This document shows, piece after piece, positions 10,757-21,939 of a stretch of 64,000 bases of DNA. The stretch spans positions 212,252 to 276,251 of the forward strand of contig JACKLX010000004.1 of NCBI GenBank assembly GCA_024235695.1, in the 5' to 3' direction. Position numbers and translations under genes: made by a program. The first letter of the stretch is position 1; every line of letters begins with the position of its first letter. Below the pieces are notes generated by a model. That model saw nothing but the letters and a program-made list of their open reading frames with translations. It had not been told where the DNA came from and ran no database searches. The DNA is from Accumulibacter sp. (lineage in GTDB: Bacteria > Pseudomonadota > Gammaproteobacteria > Burkholderiales > Rhodocyclaceae).

Positions 10757-10890
10757 TGGTGAGCACCGCCGACAACGCCGCCGCCAGCCGGGCGAAGGCC
10801 TCGCCGCCTATCGCAGCGCCGAGGCGTTCTGATAGCATTGACCGGTCAGCCGCTCTCCCGAGCTTGTTCACTGCTCGTCTTGCGAGGCCC

Positions 10891-11967
10891 ATGATGACCA
10901 CCATCACCGCGACCACCACCGCCCGGCGCTGCCTTTCGGCCGCCATCCTCAGCCTCTTGCTGCCGATCGCGAGCGTCAGCGCGGCGCCGCCACTGCCCGC
11001 ACTCGGCGCCGAGCTGCACCAGTTGACGGTTTCCGGCGTCTCGTCGGGCGCCTACATGGCGGTGCAGTTCCAGGTCGCGCACTCAAAGCTGGTACGTGGC
11101 GCCGGCGTCGTCGCCGGCGGGCCATACTACTGCGCCGAGGGTTCGACCCGGCTGGCGCTGAGTCGCTGCATGTCGCCCACCTCGTGGGCACCGCTGCCGT
11201 CGGTCGCCGAACTGCGCGCCAACGCCGAAGCGCTGTCCGCCGCAGGCCGCATCGATCCGCTCGACAACCTGCGCGACGACCGGGTTTGGCTGTTCTCGGG
11301 TGGTCGCGACACGATTGTCGCGACGGCAGTAATGGACCGGCTGGCGGCCTTCTATGGCCAGTGGATGACGCCGGAGGCGATTCGCTTCGTCAAGTTGCCC
11401 GACGCCGGGCACGCCATGATCTCGGTCGCCGACCCCGGAGCCAATGCCTGCAGCAGCGAGGAATCGCCGTTCATCAACCGCTGTGGCGATCTCGATGCCG
11501 CCGGCGAGATGCTTTCACATCTGCTTGGCCCGCTACAACCGGCGGCGGCGACGCCACACGGCGAACTGCTCAGCTTCGACCAGAAGCCCTTCGTCGAAGG
11601 TCGGGCGGTTGACGCCGGGATGGCCGACGAGGCCTACGTCTACGTACCGCAGACCTGTCGCCGGGCCGTCTGCCGGGTTCACGTTGTTTTCCACGGTTGC
11701 CGCCAGAGCGCGGCACAGATCGGCCGCCTGTTCGTGGAAAGCGCCGGCTACAACGCCTGGGCGGACAGCAACCGGCTGATCGTTCTTTACCCGCAGACGG
11801 TTCCTCGCTACGGCGCAGCAATGGGCTCGTGGACCTGGCTCAACAACCCCTTTGCCTGCTGGGACTGGTGGGGCTACTCGGGGAACGACTATCACACCCG
11901 CGAAGGACCGCAGATCAAGGCCGTGTACCGCATGATCGAGCGGCTGACCGCTGCGCGGCAGCCGTGA
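10891..11967 (+). CDS. Extracellular-type short-chain PHA depolymerase, catalytic domain type 2
   Basis: This 358-residue protein has a signal peptide (to about residue 31, ending SVSA) and an alpha/beta-hydrolase domain. The lipase box GVSSG (residues 49-53, Ser51) is near the N-terminus. The oxyanion-hole histidine in VFHGCRQSAAQIG is downstream; this order defines type 2 depolymerases. Aspartate in SGGRDTIVA and histidine in PDAGHAM are candidate triad members. Many cysteines suggest a periplasmic or secreted enzyme. It would hydrolyse poly(3-hydroxybutyrate) or its oligomers. The start at 10891 yields the signal peptide; ATG 10894 is an alternative. No linker or substrate-binding domain is present, so activity on oligomers or in the periplasm is possible. 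Confidence 0.85.
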   Translation: MMTTITATTTARRCLSAAILSLLLPIASVSAAPPLPALGAELHQLTVSGVSSGAYMAVQFQVAHSKLVRGAGVVAGGPYYCAEGSTRLALSRCMSPTSWAPLPSVAELRANAEALSAAGRIDPLDNLRDDRVWLFSGGRDTIVATAVMDRLAAFYGQWMTPEAIRFVKLPDAGHAMISVADPGANACSSEESPFINRCGDLDAAGEMLSHLLGPLQPAAATPHGELLSFDQKPFVEGRAVDAGMADEAYVYVPQTCRRAVCRVHVVFHGCRQSAAQIGRLFVESAGYNAWADSNRLIVLYPQTVPRYGAAMGSWTWLNNPFACWDWWGYSGNDYHTREGPQIKAVYRMIERLTAARQP

Positions 11968-15275: not shown

Positions 15276-16082
15276 TCAGCCGTAGCGGCCTTCGATGTAG
15301 TCGGCGGTTTCCCTGTGGATCGGCGTGACGAACATTTCCGCGGTCAGTGCGTGCTCGACGACCTTGCCCATCAGCATGAAGACGCATTCCTCGCTGGCGC
15401 GACGCGCCTGCGCCATGTTGTGAGTGACGATCAGGATCGTGTACTGGCCGCGTAGCTCCCAGAGCAGTTCTTCGACCGCCTCGGTGCCCTTGGGGTCGAG
15501 CGCCGAGCACGGTTCGTCCATCAGCAGCACCTTTGGCTTCACCGGCAGCAGTCGGGCGATACAGAGCTTCTGCTGCTCCTCCAGAGACAACTCGGTGGCC
15601 TTGCGCTTGAGGCGGTCCTTGACCTTGTCCCAGAGCAGGACGGTCCGCAGCGACTCCTCGACAATCTCGTCCGGCGTTCCTGGATGCACATCGCCGCCGC
15701 CCTTGGCGTGCAGGCGATGGCTGAAGAGGATATTGTCGCGGATCGAAATCGGCAGGGGATTGGGACGCTGAAAGACCATCCCGACCTGCTTGCGAACCTG
15801 AATCAGCTCGACGCCCGGGTCGTAGATGTTCTGACCCATGACGTCGATGCGCCCTTCGATGCGCACGTAGCCGAGGCGTTCGTTGATGCGGTTGACGCTG
15901 CGCAGGTAGGTGCTCTTGCCGCAGCCCGAAGGGCCGATCATCGAGGTGATCATGCCCTGGCGGATGCGCAGGTCCACGTCGTACAGAGCCTGAAAGGTCC
16001 CGTACCAGAGGTTCAGTTTCTTGGTGTCGATCGCGTAATCTGGAGCTGGCTGCAGCAGCGCTGCGGCTTGGGCGACGGTCAT
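15276..16082 (-). CDS. pstB: PstB-family ATPase 1 (pstB1), signature motif degenerate
   Basis: This 268-residue phosphate-ABC-transporter ATPase has a canonical Walker A (GPSGCGKST, residues 50-58), a Q-loop (GMVFQRPNP), Walker B (VLLMDEP, 185-191), D-loop (SALDP) and switch histidine (VTHN, His221). Its ABC signature, normally LSGGQ, reads LSLEEQ (165-170). It should therefore bind ATP well but cannot offer a normal signature to a partner. It is the last gene of the pst operon, 195 bases after pstB2. The partner PstB2 shows the reverse pattern, so the two probably form a heterodimer under PstC/PstA. AAGGA lies 9-10 bases before the ATG. Confidence 0.9.
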   Translation of the reverse strand: MTVAQAAALLQPAPDYAIDTKKLNLWYGTFQALYDVDLRIRQGMITSMIGPSGCGKSTYLRSVNRINERLGYVRIEGRIDVMGQNIYDPGVELIQVRKQVGMVFQRPNPLPISIRDNILFSHRLHAKGGGDVHPGTPDEIVEESLRTVLLWDKVKDRLKRKATELSLEEQQKLCIARLLPVKPKVLLMDEPCSALDPKGTEAVEELLWELRGQYTILIVTHNMAQARRASEECVFMLMGKVVEHALTAEMFVTPIHRETADYIEGRYG

Positions 16083-16237
16083 CTCGGTGTGTCCTTCTTA
16101 GACTTTGTTTGAATCCGGCGAAAGCCGTGGCCTGCTCCACCGCAGCTCTCTCAGACATGAGGCGAGCGCTGGCATCGTCGCAAGACCGGTCAGCTTCCGC
16201 AGTTCGGCAAACTGGTGGAGCGGTGGCCCGGAGGCAC

Positions 16238-16261
16238 CTCTGCTGCAACAACACAGCAGAG
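16238..16261 (-). repeat. Hairpin between pstB2 and pstB1
   Basis: CTCTGCTG and CAGCAGAG form a perfect 8-bp stem with an 8-base loop in the 195-base spacer between the two pstB genes. No T tract follows on the minus strand, so it is not an obvious terminator. It could set the relative amounts of the two ATPases through mRNA processing or attenuation. Confidence 0.55.
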
Positions 16262-16277
16262 ATCCCCTCAGCCAGGG

Positions 16278-17099
16278 TCAGCCGAATCGTCCCTCCACGT
16301 AGTCGCGGGTGCGCTGATCCTTCACTTCACCGGTGAACAGATCCTCGGTGACGCCAATCTCGACGCACTCGCTGTCCAGAAAGAACGCTGTCCGGTCGGC
16401 GAGCCGCCGGGCCTGCTGCACGAGGTTCGTGACCAGGATGATGGTCACTTCCTGGCGCAACTCCTTGAGCACATCCTCAATGCGCATGGTGGTAACCGGA
16501 TCGACGGCGATCGAGAACTCGTCCAGCATCAACAGGTCGGGCTCCTGCGACAGCGCCCTGGCAATCGTCAGCCGTTGCTGCTGGCCGCCCGAGAGCAGGC
16601 TGCCGAGCGCATTGAGGCGATCCTTGACCTCGTCCCAGAGCGCCGCGCGGGTCAGACAGCGCTGGACGATCACGTCCAGTTCGGCCTTGCTCTTGATGCC
16701 GCGCAAGCGGGGTGACAAGGCGACGTTGTCGTACACCGTCATCGGCAGGCCGACCGGCAGCGGGAAAACGACGCCGATGCGGCTGCGCAAAGCGTACACA
16801 TTGTTCAGGCGGCGGGTATCCCGGCCGTTGAAGTCGATGTCGCCACTGACCCGCATCCCTGGTGTGAACACGTCCATGCGGTTGATCGCCTTGAGGAACG
16901 AGGTCTTGCCGGCATTGGCCGGACCGATGATGCCGAAGATTTCATGCTCGTGAATCTCCAGGTTGACGCCGTGCAAGGCGACCACCTTGCCGTAGCGGAT
17001 GCTCAGGTCCTTGACCGCGAGTTTGATGCGCGGCTCGGTTCGCCCGGTCTTTGCGTCGGCAACACCAGCCGGCCGCTCGATAGTGCTTTGACTTACCAT
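16278..17099 (-). CDS. pstB: PstB-family ATPase 2 (pstB2), degenerate ATP site but intact signature
   Basis: This is a 273-residue ATPase. Walker A is unusual (GPANAGKTS, residues 59-67). The Q-loop glutamine is replaced by proline (VVFPLPVG). Walker B reads LLMLDEF, and the switch histidine is asparagine (VTN, residue 225). The signature LSGGQ (169-173) is intact. In an ABC dimer each site pairs one subunit's Walker motifs with the other's signature, so with PstB1 this gives one good and one degenerate site. I chose the ATG at 17099 (GGGGGA upstream, 7-base overlap with the pstA stop) over 17120. It is expected at the cytoplasmic face of the PstCA permease. Confidence 0.9.
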   Translation of the reverse strand: MVSQSTIERPAGVADAKTGRTEPRIKLAVKDLSIRYGKVVALHGVNLEIHEHEIFGIIGPANAGKTSFLKAINRMDVFTPGMRVSGDIDFNGRDTRRLNNVYALRSRIGVVFPLPVGLPMTVYDNVALSPRLRGIKSKAELDVIVQRCLTRAALWDEVKDRLNALGSLLSGGQQQRLTIARALSQEPDLLMLDEFSIAVDPVTTMRIEDVLKELRQEVTIILVTNLVQQARRLADRTAFFLDSECVEIGVTEDLFTGEVKDQRTRDYVEGRFG

Positions 17100-17983
17100 T
17101 TCTTCTTCCCCCTGAGCCACATGCGGAAGGCGATCGAGGCACTGTTCATGGTCAGCACCAGCCCGATCAGGACCAGCGCGATGCCGTAGGGGACATCTTC
17201 GGCAATGCCGGGTACCTGGGTGGCAGCGACGAACAGGTGCAACGACAGCGCCATGGTCTGGTCGAAGACGCTTTGCGGCAGGAATGGCGTGAAGAACACG
17301 GCGCCGGTAAACATGATTGGCGCCGTTTCACCAGCGGTGCGCGACACCTCCAGGATGACACCGGTCAGGATGCCGGTCACCGAGTTCGGCAAGACCACGC
17401 GGCGGATGGTCTGCCAGCGCGTCGCGCCCATGTTCCAGCAGGCTTCGCGAAACGCTTGCGGCACCGCCTGCAGCGATTCGCGGGTGGCGACGATCACCAC
17501 CGGCATGGTCATCACCGCCAGCGTCAGGCTCGCCGCCAGGATGCTGGTGCCGAAGCCGAAGAAGAGTACGAAGGCGCCCAGGCCGAACAAGGCGTGCACG
17601 ATCGAGGGGACGCCCGCCAGGTTGATGATCGCCAGGTTGATGGTCCGTGTGAACCAGTTGTCGCCGGCATATTCACTGAGATAGATCGCAGCAAATATGC
17701 CGATTGGCACCGACAGCAGGAGCGCCGTCATCACCAACCAGATAGTACCGATCAACGCCGGCAGGACGCCGCCAGTGCGCATGCCGTCGGTCGGCGGGGT
17801 GAACAGGAACTCCCAGGAGATAACGCCGCCGCCCTTGACCACCAGTGTTCCGAGAATCAGCAGCACGGGCGTGATCAGCATCAGGGTCATGATTCCGAAA
17901 AGTATTCGGTAGAGAACCTGCACCTTCTCGTTGCGCTGGTTCAGGCGGCTCGCCTGAAACATTGCGGTGTTGGCTGTTGTCAT
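17093..17983 (-). CDS. pstA: Phosphate ABC transporter permease PstA
   Basis: This is a 296-residue inner-membrane permease. The first membrane segment is at about residues 25-50 (ILFGIMTLMLITPVLLILGTL). The BPD_transp_1 core has the coupling segment EACWNMGATRWQTIRRVVLPNSVTGILTG near residues 180-210. It forms the phosphate channel together with PstC. It starts 4 bases after the pstC stop and ends overlapping pstB2, so it is in the same operon. An AAGGGA site lies inside the pstC end. Confidence 0.95.
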   Translation of the reverse strand: MTTANTAMFQASRLNQRNEKVQVLYRILFGIMTLMLITPVLLILGTLVVKGGGVISWEFLFTPPTDGMRTGGVLPALIGTIWLVMTALLLSVPIGIFAAIYLSEYAGDNWFTRTINLAIINLAGVPSIVHALFGLGAFVLFFGFGTSILAASLTLAVMTMPVVIVATRESLQAVPQAFREACWNMGATRWQTIRRVVLPNSVTGILTGVILEVSRTAGETAPIMFTGAVFFTPFLPQSVFDQTMALSLHLFVAATQVPGIAEDVPYGIALVLIGLVLTMNSASIAFRMWLRGKKKW

Positions 17984-17987
17984 TTTG

Positions 17988-18938
17988 CTATCCCTTGCGG
18001 ATGCCGCGCACGATCAGGTCGGCGCTCAGGTTGACGATAAAGGTGACCAGGAACAGCAGGATGCCGATGGTGAACAGCACCTGATAGTGCTCGCCACCGA
18101 CGACCGTCTCACCCAATTCGGCGGCAATCGTCGCAGTCAGCGCACGTACCGAGTCGAAAATGCTGTCCGGGATGTTGACCGCGTGCCCGGTAGCCATCAG
18201 CACCGCCATGGTCTCACCGAAGCCGCGACCAACACCGAGCAGGACGCCACCGAGCAGACCATTCTTGGCGGCCGGCAGCACCACCTTGTAGGTCACCTGC
18301 CAGCGCGTGGCGCCCATCGCCTCGGCCGCTTCGCGGTAACGGTCGGGAACTGCCTTCAGCGCGTCTTCGGCGATCGAGGTCATGATCGGAGCGGCCATCA
18401 GGCCGAGGATGATGCCGGCGTTGAGCACGCAAAGACCCACCGGCACGTCGAACCACTTGATGATCAAGGGATTCATGATCACCAGACCGATGAAGCCCCA
18501 GACCACCGAAGGAATCGCGGCCAGCAATTCGACCAGCACCTTCAGCGCTTCACGCGTCTTGCCGGTAGCGAACTCGGCGATATAGATCGCCGCACCCAGC
18601 GAAAACGGGATCGCCACCAGCATCGCCAGCCCGGTGACGCTGGCGGTACCGGCCATCAACGCCAGAATGCCGTATTCGGGATCGTCGGCATCGCTCGGAA
18701 ACCAGTAAGGGGTGAGAAAGAACTCCTTGAAATCGAGGTGTTGGAAAACGAAGCCGATGCCTTCCTTGGTGACGAAGACAAAGATGCCGAGGACGAAGAT
18801 GATCGCCGAGATACCGCAGACGAAGACGAGAACCTGGACGGCCTTATCCACGTACCAGTCGGCATTGCGACGATCGAAGCTGTCCGCGCCGCCAACGGCG
18901 GCGATGGTGGCGCGCGACGCAGTCGTGCTGATGGCCAT
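17988..18938 (-). CDS. pstC: Phosphate ABC transporter permease PstC
   Basis: This 316-residue permease has an N-terminal membrane segment (VLVFVCGISAIIFVLGIFVFV) and a core with AAEAMGATRWQVTYKVVLPAAKNGLLGG, the EAA-type loop that contacts the ATPases. The ATG at 18938 lies directly after the phoU stop and has GAGGAGG nine bases before it; an in-frame start at 18959 would overlap phoU and has no better site. Together with PstA it makes the transmembrane path for phosphate. Confidence 0.95.
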   Translation of the reverse strand: MAISTTASRATIAAVGGADSFDRRNADWYVDKAVQVLVFVCGISAIIFVLGIFVFVTKEGIGFVFQHLDFKEFFLTPYWFPSDADDPEYGILALMAGTASVTGLAMLVAIPFSLGAAIYIAEFATGKTREALKVLVELLAAIPSVVWGFIGLVIMNPLIIKWFDVPVGLCVLNAGIILGLMAAPIMTSIAEDALKAVPDRYREAAEAMGATRWQVTYKVVLPAAKNGLLGGVLLGVGRGFGETMAVLMATGHAVNIPDSIFDSVRALTATIAAELGETVVGGEHYQVLFTIGILLFLVTFIVNLSADLIVRGIRKG

Positions 18939-18939
18939 C

Positions 18940-20025
18940 TCAGTCCGCCTCCTCGCCACGCAGGGTGATCATCAGGTTGCTCACCTGTACCGCGATGTCG
19001 CGAATCAGGGCTGCGTAGTGCTCGCGCCGCTGATCGTCAGGAAGGTCGGCCGCAACGGCGCCGCCGAAGCGCCACTCGAGTGCCGACGAGTGGAAGGGAA
19101 CGCTGTCTACGTACGACCTGACCGGACCCTGCAGGCTGACGATGACGTGGAAATCGACCAGATCGTGATGACCGGTTTCGAGCGCCTTCGGCTGGTGGCG
19201 GGCAAGATCGATGCCCGTCTCCTGAAGCAAGCTGACCACCTCCGGCGCCATCGCCCCAGCCTGTCTGCCCAGGCTTCGGTATTCGCCGCTCTCCGGGAAA
19301 TTCTTGCGGGCGACGGCCTCGGCGATCGGCCCGAGAAGGGTGTTGTCATCGTCCAGGAAGAGGATGCGAAAGACCTTGGCCGCCTTGGTCTGGCCGGTGA
19401 CCGCGAACACCGTTTCCTCGCAGATGTTCTTGGCCTGGTCGGAAACGCGCTCCAGCGAGTTGAATACCCCGAGATAGGCGAAGAGATCCTCGATGCTGAA
19501 CTTCTCGCCTTCGTTGACCAGGTCGGCGAAGACCGCGTCGAAGGTCCGCTCGACCTGATCGGCCATGATCATCGTTGCCTTGGCCTTCTCGGCGTTGCCA
19601 TCGATGAAAGCACAGACCGCCTGCTTGAACATCTGGCGCGACTCGCCGGCGAGCAGCTCGACCTCGCGCTTGATCACCGCGTCGGGACGTTTGGCCAGGT
19701 GCACCGACTCGCGGGCGATGGTCACCGCGTAGTCGCCGACGCGCTCCAGCGCCACGTTGGCGTGAATCATCGCCGTCATCAGGCGCAGGTGCCCGGCACT
19801 CGGTAGATGCACACCGATGAAAGCGTGGCACATGCGGTCAAGTTTGCGGTTTTCGGCGTTGATCCGCTGGTCGCCGAGAATGGTGGCATAGGCGAGCTTG
19901 TCGTCGCCACTCAGCAAGGCCCGCACTGCTGCACTGAGGGCTTCGTCGACGCGCTTGGCAAGCATCGTCGCCTGTTGTTTGATCTGAGACAGGTCCCTCT
20001 CGAGACGTTCTTCGTAATGACTCAT
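18940..20025 (-). CDS. phoU: PhoU fused to a pseudo-LMW-phosphatase domain
   Basis: This 361-residue protein has two parts. Residues 1 to about 212 are a normal PhoU with both metal-binding ExxxD motifs (ERVGD near 94 and ERVSD near 192). Residues about 217-355 resemble an ArsC/low-molecular-weight tyrosine phosphatase (RILFLDDDNTLLGPIAEA, then GIDLARHQPKAL, then DFHVIVSLQGPVR). The catalytic CX5R loop is gone: the cysteine position is Asp and the arginine is Leu. The altered loop reads DDDNT (225-229), the DxDxT pattern of HAD phosphatases. PhoU normally couples the Pst complex to PhoR and restrains phosphate uptake. Usual PhoU length is about 240, so the extra domain is a true addition. The ATG at 20025 has GGGGAG upstream. 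Confidence 0.85.
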   Translation of the reverse strand: MSHYEERLERDLSQIKQQATMLAKRVDEALSAAVRALLSGDDKLAYATILGDQRINAENRKLDRMCHAFIGVHLPSAGHLRLMTAMIHANVALERVGDYAVTIARESVHLAKRPDAVIKREVELLAGESRQMFKQAVCAFIDGNAEKAKATMIMADQVERTFDAVFADLVNEGEKFSIEDLFAYLGVFNSLERVSDQAKNICEETVFAVTGQTKAAKVFRILFLDDDNTLLGPIAEAVARKNFPESGEYRSLGRQAGAMAPEVVSLLQETGIDLARHQPKALETGHHDLVDFHVIVSLQGPVRSYVDSVPFHSSALEWRFGGAVAADLPDDQRREHYAALIRDIAVQVSNLMITLRGEEAD

Positions 20026-20115: not shown

Positions 20116-20988
20116 TTACTTGCAGTTGACCTTCTTGATCGGCGCGTAACCTTCCTTGGCGACGATGCACTGACCGACGTCGCTCTTGATCCAGTCCATG
20201 TACTTCTTGGTATCTGCCTTCGGTTGACCATCGGTGTACATGAATAGCGGCCGGGCGATCGGATAGGTGCCATCGAAAGCGGTATCCTCGGTCGGCTTGA
20301 CGCAGGGCTTGCCCTTCTCGGGCGAGATGCACAGCGCCTTGAGGTGATCGGTGGCGTAGGCCAGACCGCTGTAGCCGATCGCGCAGGGCGTTTTCTCGAC
20401 CAGGTCGGCGACGTCCTTCGAACCGTGCATGTCGAGCGTACCCTGGCGGAATTTGCCCTTCTCGCCCAGCACGGCCTCCTGGAAGTAGGCATAGGTCCCC
20501 GAGTTGTTCTGCCGGCTGACCACGACGATCTCGTCCTTGCAACCGGGAATGGTGATCCCCAGTTCGCTCCACTTGGTCGCGCCGCCACGCCCGTAGATCT
20601 TCGCCAGTTCGGGAATGCTCAGTGAGTCGAGCGGAAAGTTCTTGTGCACGAAGATCGCCAGAGCATCGTAGCCGACGACGTGCTCGACGGGATCGTGACC
20701 TTTGGCCTTGGCCTCGGCAATCTCCTTATCCTTCATCTTGCGGCTGGAGTTGGCGATATCGACGGTGCCGTTGATCATCGCCGCGATGCCGGTACCCGAA
20801 CCGCCGCCCGAGACGGCCACGGCGACGTTGGGGTTGATCTTGCCGTACTGCTCGGCCCACGACTGGGCGACGTTGACCAGAGTGTCCGAGCCCTTGTTCT
20901 GGATTTCGGTCCGTGCGGAAGCCGCACCGGACGCCAGGGCAGCGGCGACGGCAAGGCTGATGCTCAACAACAACGATTTTGAAGTCAT
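20116..20988 (-). CDS. pstS: Phosphate-binding periplasmic protein PstS
   Basis: This 290-residue exported binding protein has a signal peptide (MTSKSLLLSISLAVAAALAS, cleavage near ASA-RT at residue 25) and the phosphate-binding core: NKGSDTLVNVAQSW, the SGGGSGTGIAAMINGTVDIANSSRK segment and RQNNSGTYAYFQEAVLG. It delivers phosphate to PstCA. It is the first gene of the operon, 90 bases before phoU. The ATG at 20988 is preceded by GGAG; an open frame extends 90 bases further but adds no export signal. It is of the short PBP type and not the classical E. coli PstS type. Confidence 0.92.
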   Translation of the reverse strand: MTSKSLLLSISLAVAAALASGAASARTEIQNKGSDTLVNVAQSWAEQYGKINPNVAVAVSGGGSGTGIAAMINGTVDIANSSRKMKDKEIAEAKAKGHDPVEHVVGYDALAIFVHKNFPLDSLSIPELAKIYGRGGATKWSELGITIPGCKDEIVVVSRQNNSGTYAYFQEAVLGEKGKFRQGTLDMHGSKDVADLVEKTPCAIGYSGLAYATDHLKALCISPEKGKPCVKPTEDTAFDGTYPIARPLFMYTDGQPKADTKKYMDWIKSDVGQCIVAKEGYAPIKKVNCK

Positions 20989-21939
20989 GACGTGTTCTCC
21001 AGGGAGGGTTGATTTTTTTTGAAGCCTTTGGATGTAGATCAAAGACTTCAGGGGTGACGCAGGGCAGACGAGCGGCAAAGATTATCAGAAATAATCGCCA
21101 TGGCAAGCCCCATTGACACCTAAAACACGAATAAAAATTGGCCTGACCACTGCCCGCGAACCATTTTCAGCCGGCACTTCAAACACCATGACAAAGTCCT
21201 GTGAAATCCCTGAGATGCGACACGGATTGGCACATTTTCATACGTACCGTATTGTTTTACTGTCGTTTCTATGATTTGACAAGACATGCCTTTGCACTAC
21301 TTGTTGAACAATTACAGAGATCATCATTGATTATCAATGGACTTGGCACATAATCGCTAGCCATGCCAATACCAACAGACCATGGATCTCGGTGTTTGGC
21401 CATCGCGAGCACCGTCGAAGTCGCAGAAACGGTGCGATCTAATCGTCACTACGGATAAGTAATCCTTTTATCTCATGGAGTTGTCGGGCCGATTCGAGAA
21501 ATTGCCCAGTCGCGGTATTTTCTCTGCGGTTCGCGATCTGTCATGAAGATGACATACGGCGACAAGGGCCGGAAAAGGTGGTGCCGGCAGCCCCTCGCCC
21601 TTGCCTCTGGTTGGCGCCGCATCACGCGATAGTCATTGCCCCGGGGATGCTCACGCGATGGCTCGCGGTACGCCCGGGACAAGCGCTCGGCAGTCTTGTC
21701 GGCGCCACGACGAGGCGCCGGGGCCTGGCGGTCGACCGTGACAGCAGGCGCGGAGATGGCCGCAAGCGGCCCCCGCAGTCCGGCCGGCTAAGCGACGAAG
21801 AGAGCGAGCCAGCACCCACCGGCATCGACCCGTGCAGCTGATCGACGGCGTCAACCGTTGGCCAAGGCCGACGCGGCAGGACCGGCCAACCGGCCGATCA
21901 ACGGCTGGGCGCCGGTACGCGAAACCGCGCCGCGCCGGA
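20989..21939. other. Long AT-rich intergenic region upstream of pstS
   Basis: This 951-base non-coding region is clearly AT-richer than its surroundings from about 21060 to 21540 and must hold the pst promoter. Dyads seen are GATTAT-n5-ATAATC (21080-21096) and ATTGAT-t-ATCAAT (21326-21338). Three 11-base-spaced TGA/TGT steps occur at 21189-21221, recalling Pho-box spacing, but they do not match the PhoB consensus well. Short frames at 21578-21841 have no family resemblance. No small RNA could be identified by eye. Confidence 0.6.
21539..21554. repeat. Perfect dyad TGTCAT-n4-ATGACA
   Basis: TGTCAT, GAAG, ATGACA is a perfect inverted repeat in the gap upstream of pstS. The half-site TGTCAT is the core of Pho-box repeats but here is inverted, not direct. 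It could be a binding site for a dimeric regulator. Confidence 0.45.

Follow-up and report, generated by a model that had tools for sequence, protein, structure and literature searches.

We describe here a pst operon, encoded within a 64,000-nucleotide stretch of Accumulibacter DNA (the window), that contains genes for two PstB-type ATPases. The operon lies on the minus strand in the order pstS, phoU-fusion, pstC, pstA, pstB2 and pstB1. The phosphate-binding protein gene pstS (20116-21078 for the open reading frame as listed, with the true start probably at an internal ATG near 20990) scores above the TIGR02136 cut-off, and the permease genes pstC (17988-18959) and pstA (17093-17983) likewise pass the cut-offs of NCBIfam PstC and PstA, with 273 and 256 bits against 196 and 193 bits respectively. 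The phoU product (18943-20025) falls 0.25 bits below its own cut-off and has at its C-terminus an ArsC/LMW-phosphatase-like domain with no catalytic Cys (FLDDDN). Of the two ATPase genes, pstB2 (16278-17099) encodes 273 residues from an ATG that overlaps the pstA stop codon (ATGGTAA), and pstB1 (15276-16082) encodes 268 residues from an ATG situated 195 bp beyond pstB2. TIGR00972, the NCBIfam PstB model, is the best family for both proteins, although PstB1 with 312.4 bits and PstB2 with 275.2 bits are each below the curated cut-off of 343.2 bits. Both are accompanied by genes for PstS, PstC, PstA and PhoU, and the family membership of PstS, PstA and PstC suggests that the transported substrate is phosphate. 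A Pho-box-like site upstream was considered and dropped, as the window contains two matches where 3.27 are expected. Elsewhere in the window, a 402-residue open reading frame at 10759-11967 on the plus strand has no Pfam match at E<=0.001.

The motifs of the two ATPases depart from the canonical set in complementary ways. PstB1 has an intact Walker A (GPSGCGKST), Q-loop (FQRP), Walker B and D-loop (DEPCSALD) and switch His (VTH221), and has lost the LSGGQ signature, which reads LSLEEQ at residues 165-170. PstB2 retains LSGGQ, and has an altered Walker A (GPANAGKTS), a Q-loop in which Gln is replaced by Pro (FPLP, P113), DEFSIAVD with F195 in place of Pro, and Asn at the switch (VTN225). These readings, made in a preliminary description of the same DNA, are borne out for both proteins by the open reading frames. 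Not stressed in that description is that the Lys of Walker A, the Asp of Walker B and the catalytic Glu are all still present in PstB2; a site built on its degenerate Walker side could therefore still bind Mg-ATP. Neither polypeptide contains the full ABC ATPase motif set, and each is without motifs that the other has kept. In each ABC site the signature of one subunit meets the Walker motifs, Q-loop and H-loop of the other (PMC7756269). A PstB1 homodimer would therefore be without both signatures and a PstB2 homodimer without the Q-loop Gln and switch His, such that a canonical site is expected only in the heterodimer. We note that the signature change Q160K in E. coli PstB abolished transport (PMC5775613), which argues that a PstB1 homodimer should not work.

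Within Accumulibacter the two forms are neighbouring genes. A PstB2 of the same type is present in 20 of 28 same-genus genomes (the window's own included, and one of them, G003, partial), and in all 20 it is adjoined by PstB1, which in two (G023 and G026) is interrupted by N or by a contig end; outside the genus, no such PstB2 was found in nine genomes from the rest of the family or in 24 more from the order. The diagnostic residues are identical wherever readable in 19 same-genus loci (L010-L028), and among the matches listed the PstB2s of the nearest Accumulibacter MAGs are 86-90% identical. Both genes are under purifying selection within the genus, with a median dN/dS of 0.072 for PstB1 (17 of the 19 loci, the two broken by N or a contig end being left out) and 0.096 for PstB2 (all 19). 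The window comes from an assembly rated 84% complete, which gives some room for the view that the motif changes are sequencing errors or the mark of a decaying duplicate. That outcome, named in the preliminary description as one that would count against it, is excluded by the low dN/dS values and by the recurrence of the same motif sets throughout the genus and in other phyla, and its probability is next to nothing.

The window's genome (G000) also contains a canonical-like pstB, a 152-residue open reading frame on another contig (C7, locus L009, 7172-7630, minus strand), in which the stretch from behind the Q-loop to near the C-terminus is gone, leaving no signature, Walker B or switch; it is a remnant. 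A genome-wide profile search found no gene in this genome above the PstB model cut-off, and if the same is true of other carriers, phosphate uptake capacity would be missed or miscounted in surveys of phosphorus cycling. In another carrier genome (G001), rated 100% complete, no PstB-type gene beyond the pair was listed.

The pair extends well beyond the genus and occurs in two forms. In class I, the 116 distinct PstB2s have GP[A/S]xxGK[T/S], [F/A/L/S]PLP, LSGGQ, DEFSIA[V/I]D and VTN[L/V], with Pro at the Q position, Asn at the switch and the LSGGQ signature in all of them. The 108 distinct class I PstB1s have GPSGCGK, FQ[R/K]P (SQRP in one), DEPCSALD and VTH; the Q-loop Gln is present in every one, the switch His is replaced in a single protein (VTY), and none has LSGGQ, the signature being LSLEEQ, LSLEQQ, LQLEQQ, LSLEEM and so on, with both glycines replaced (by Leu in about 100% and Glu in 98%). 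In class II, ten distinct PstB2s have GP[A/S]xxGKT, FA[V/L]P, LSGGQ, DEPCSGLD and VTNN, and ten distinct PstB1s have GPSGCGK (one GSSGCGK), FQRP and VTHNMQQ with LSAEQQ, LSLEQK, LPMDQQ, LSGEAQ or LSLEEK as signatures; two further class II pairs were found in addition. Class II is predicted to have the same division of labour as class I, achieved with other letters. The classes were set by motif, and class I was checked by best-query homology: every readable row whose best query was PstB2 belongs to the PstB2 class (129 of 129, with three more cut or broken by N), and every one whose best query was the class I PstB1 belongs to the PstB1 class (120 of 120, with eight more cut or broken), repeat loci being included in both counts.

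In a scan of GTDB species genomes, with the best 80 of at least 586 relatives kept, the carriers include Chromatiaceae, Planctomycetota, Nitrospirales, Rhodothermales, Holophagales, Thermoanaerobaculia, Verrucomicrobia, Acidobacteria, Poribacteria, Magnetococcales, Bacteriovoracaceae and a 'Deltaproteobacteria' (Myxococcota) MAG. The order PstC-PstA-PstB2-PstB1 recurs across these genomes, most of which also have PstS and PhoU close by; a few of the loci are truncated at a contig end. Even draws of genomes from single phyla gave class I PstB2 in Planctomycetota (22 of 294, with a cut-off of 296 bits), Acidobacteriota (28 of 247), Pseudomonadota (24 of 398, the window's own included) and Verrucomicrobiota (6 of 240); the Planctomycetota, Acidobacteriota and Verrucomicrobiota draws are centred on known carriers, which are counted, and one genome (G065) appears again in the Acidobacteriota draw. 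These figures are lower bounds on prevalence, because class II pairs escape a PstB2 search at E<=1e-75: two of them (G134 and G504) were recovered with the PstB1 query alone. Planctomycetota, Acidobacteriota and Verrucomicrobiota are not generally known as polyphosphate accumulators, and the tie to a phosphate-cycling organism suggested in the preliminary description is thus not specific, since the pair is present in all three phyla. Five genomes (G751, G727, G676, G692 and G607) have two copies of the asymmetric pair, some of them cut by contig ends. Separately, one Poribacteria and two Acidobacteriota genomes have a third, more degenerate PstB-like gene behind PstB1 (L056:9555-10304, L063:7774-8496 and L176:4-681), with ATN at the switch, the Q-loop Gln lost, and the signature absent in two of the three.

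The two partners are closely tied to one another. Of 139 PstB2-class rows, counting repeat loci (129 class I and ten class II), 118 class I rows and all ten of class II have a whole PstB1-class gene as the PstB-like gene that comes next on the strand; in eight of the others PstB1 is cut by a contig end or N run, two lie at contig ends, and one is separate. A canonical PstB was never found as the tandem partner of a PstB1- or PstB2-class gene in this set, so the defects always lie in trans and fall on one composite site. All 114 distinct complete pairs have Walker-side defects in one partner and the signature defect in the other, and the complementarity is, on these sequences, beyond chance. 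When the most upstream possible PstB1 start is taken, the two genes overlap or stand no more than 10 bp apart in 79 of 105 class I pairs and in nine of ten class II pairs. The distances within PstB1 and within PstB2 correlate at 0.93 for pairs chosen by motif class, and such co-inheritance is expected of any operon neighbours; the pairing checks that are not circular in this way are the identity of the next PstB-like gene and the best-query homology.

Neither form appears to occur alone. In Planctomycetota (n=294), separate searches with PstB2 and PstB1 chose the same 22 genomes for class I, and in Acidobacteriota (n=247) the PstB1 search recovered 27 of the 28 PstB2 genomes, the last (G482, L174) having its PstB2 at a contig end. 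Several candidate orphan PstB1s were considered and rejected: of three extra Planctomycetota matches, two (G217 and G150) are canonical PstBs and the third (G134) belongs to a class II pair, as do the additional Acidobacteriota matches in G387 and G504, and the second PstB1 of G607 is accompanied by its own PstB2. The one split case seen is a fragmented MAG (G755; 730 contigs, 6% contamination), with PstB2, followed by an unrelated open reading frame, and PstB1 on separate contigs (L189 and L220). Homologues with either form alone, which the preliminary description had named as evidence against its reading, thus do not seem to be present in the Planctomycetota and Acidobacteriota searches. A further PstB-type gene is present in 24 of 68 pair carriers, a part of those known, and none was detected in the other 44 with matches considered down to about 1e-43; none was found in eight of 13 genomes of a second carrier set, nor, among the 68, in any of the 12 Pseudomonadota carriers that are at least 90% complete, nine of which have contamination of 5% or less. 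MAG incompleteness could account for the lack of another PstB-type gene, and other phosphate importers may supply phosphate in carriers.

In a quick tree of 204 rows the PstB1s (67) form one clade with SH-aLRT support of 98 and the PstB2s (76) another with 97, and in a more careful tree of 81 rows, with five motif stretches removed, the support is 98/95 for the PstB1 clade and 100/97 for the PstB2 clade. Because each partner is a single clade even without the motif columns, the altered state of each most simply arose once, with the partners apparently kept together since. That the two classes arose convergently is rejected, each partner being one clade across both of them; the class II PstB2s form one clade (86) in the quick tree and do not in the motif-stripped tree. 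PstB1 and PstB2 are not sisters in the latter, in which canonical PstBs lie between them, and the pair may have started with one duplication or with the union of two PstB lineages.

We propose that PstB1 and PstB2 are the two unlike ATPase subunits of one Pst importer (PstS-PstC-PstA-PstB1-PstB2) and would act as an obligate heterodimer in which one site is canonical and the other degenerate, a reading to which we assign a probability of about 0.82. The canonical site would be composed of the PstB1 Walker A and B motifs, Q-loop and switch His with the PstB2 LSGGQ, and would hydrolyse ATP; the degenerate site would combine the altered Walker A, Pro113 and Asn225 of PstB2 with LSLEEQ of PstB1, and probably binds ATP with slow or no hydrolysis. 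We infer that a physical PstB1:PstB2 heterodimer is very likely and that hydrolysis at one site is likely; the asymmetry may also have an effect on uptake or Pho signalling. The complementary motifs, the pairing, the clades and the purifying selection all speak for the asymmetric heterodimer predicted in the preliminary description.

Two other arrangements were considered. A PstB1 homodimer could be the transport motor, with PstB2 serving as a regulatory ATPase outside transport, for example as a docking partner of PhoU or PhoR. The operon does contain an unusual PhoU fusion, and by alignment with canonical PstBs, a group defined by motifs and for which motif conservation is circular, PstB2 strays from the consensus at 15 conserved columns compared with ten in PstB1. 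However, the homodimer would have no canonical signature, LSGGQ being present in none of 118 distinct PstB1-class proteins (108 class I and ten class II), whereas it is kept in 126 of 126 distinct PstB2-class proteins and is the one motif that a partner needs. We consider this arrangement quite improbable, and judge about as poor the chances that the proteins form a heterodimer in which both sites hydrolyse ATP, with LSLEEQ and the switch Asn tolerated as lineage drift. The residues that PstB2 retains in Walker A (Lys) and Walker B (Asp), together with its catalytic Glu, are compatible with two active sites, and MRP1 is reported to keep transport when the switch of its active site is Asn (PMC7756269), so the His to Asn change in PstB2 need not kill hydrolysis. 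Nonetheless, drift fits poorly with the replacement of both signature glycines in class I PstB1s and with a Q-loop Gln that both PstB2 classes have lost, one to Pro and the other to Ala, each time at one and the same composite site. The heterodimer with a single canonical site is thus the reading that we favor.

Structure prediction speaks to the subunits and not to their interface. PstB2 and PstB1 share a reading frame, and the stretch was read through, with stops as Gly, for AlphaFold2, using an alignment with 13 of the 14 relatives in which the two genes likewise share a frame; a deeper alignment with single rows, in which most PstB1 rows fell on the PstB2 half (~36% identity), was kept out of the folding. 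The PstB2-linker-PstB1 model contains two well-formed domains with no defined interface (pTM 0.47), and one domain superposes on 9k3x with an rmsd of 1.3 over 245 columns. The top Foldseek alignments spanning both domains have rmsds of 22-27 A, which together with the pTM means that no sandwich dimer is predicted for the fused reading. The model counts neither for nor against a dimer.

By sequence, the solved structures closest to both proteins are those of E. coli PstSCAB (9k3s and 9k3x, the latter matched with E values of 9e-68 for PstB1 and 3e-62 for PstB2), and the operon partners are the same. However, E. coli has one PstB with all of the motifs that acts as a homodimer, whereas here there are two genes, each below the curated PstB cut-off. 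The heterodimeric exporters TAP, TM287/288 and BmrCD have Walker-side changes in one half and signature changes in the other at one site, and these systems and Pdr5 thus resemble the pair in confining the changes to a single composite site. In heterodimeric exporters the ATPase and membrane domains lie on one chain, whereas the present system is an importer of phosphate that depends on a binding protein, has separate ATPase genes and retains the catalytic Glu. Yeast Pdr5 has a degenerate signature, LNVEQ, that resembles LSLEEQ and LQLEQQ, and a changed H-loop (PMC7756269). RbsA and NupO have two unlike ATPase domains with one degenerate site, as described in PMC11466899, and two different ATPase domains are also a feature of DppDF/OppDF and the mycobacterial OppD/DppD fusions, whose chains are the top whole-length Foldseek matches of the fused model. 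RbsA, NupO and DppDF/OppDF nonetheless belong to other substrate families, and RbsA and NupO are single fused chains.

Two neighbouring pstB genes within one pst operon are seen in E. faecalis (PstB1/PstB2; PMC12096839) and B. subtilis (PstBA/PstBB; PMC11466899). In E. faecalis, however, the Walker A, Walker B, LSGGQ and H-loop motifs are reported in both copies (PMC12096839), and the window pair is not such a Firmicutes-type tandem with all ATPase motifs in both. Overexpressed E. faecalis PstB2 compensates for loss of PstB1, as stated in the same text, such that a tandem pair need not mean dependence, although both copies there have the full motifs. Among our loci, the only canonical tandem pair is that of an Ammoniphilus (L075), with all motifs in both copies. 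No PstB heterodimer with a degenerate site, and no PhoU-ArsC fusion, was recognisable in the literature searched, which included few subscription papers, and two Accumulibacter papers (PMC11131965 and PMC12604563) mention pst genes, in the portions accessible, without note of an asymmetric pair.

This is a real and widespread Pst variant with a two-gene asymmetric motor, and many unrelated bacteria appear to drive high-affinity phosphate import with two complementarily damaged ATPases instead of two identical subunits. Work on degenerate ATP sites has centred on exporters; a binding-protein-dependent importer with the same asymmetry seems to exist in two sequence solutions and in several phyla. 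Pst is moreover the best-studied nutrient-sensing transporter, in which transport and signalling can be read separately.

The PhoU proteins of class I operons appear often to be fused to a domain of the ArsC/LMW-phosphatase family. By tblastn, the C-terminal part of the window protein is matched behind PhoU in 19 of 28 class I loci, and several of the other nine have no PhoU at all. In a profile built from 21 fusions, the region from roughly 222 to 358 matches arsenate reductase structures (1jl3, E 4e-17), and 14 of the 21 members match LMWPc at E<=0.01, the window's own protein doing so weakly and below the cut-off. Among the aligned members that have the domain, all but L059, which retains a CX5R-like loop, show another residue in place of the catalytic Cys. 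It is conceivable, if rather unlikely, that the asymmetry serves as a signalling device in which ATP bound on the degenerate PstB2 side and the PhoU-pseudophosphatase fusion form a latch that informs the Pho response of phosphate or arsenate status, with the PstB1 side alone powering transport; such an arrangement would spend one ATP per phosphate and separate transport from sensing. The fusion protein of the window is predicted to fold with a pTM of 0.80, and PhoU-ArsC/LMW-phosphatase-like fusions are present in the window and at L040-L051, L057-L059, L062, L064, L066 and L096.
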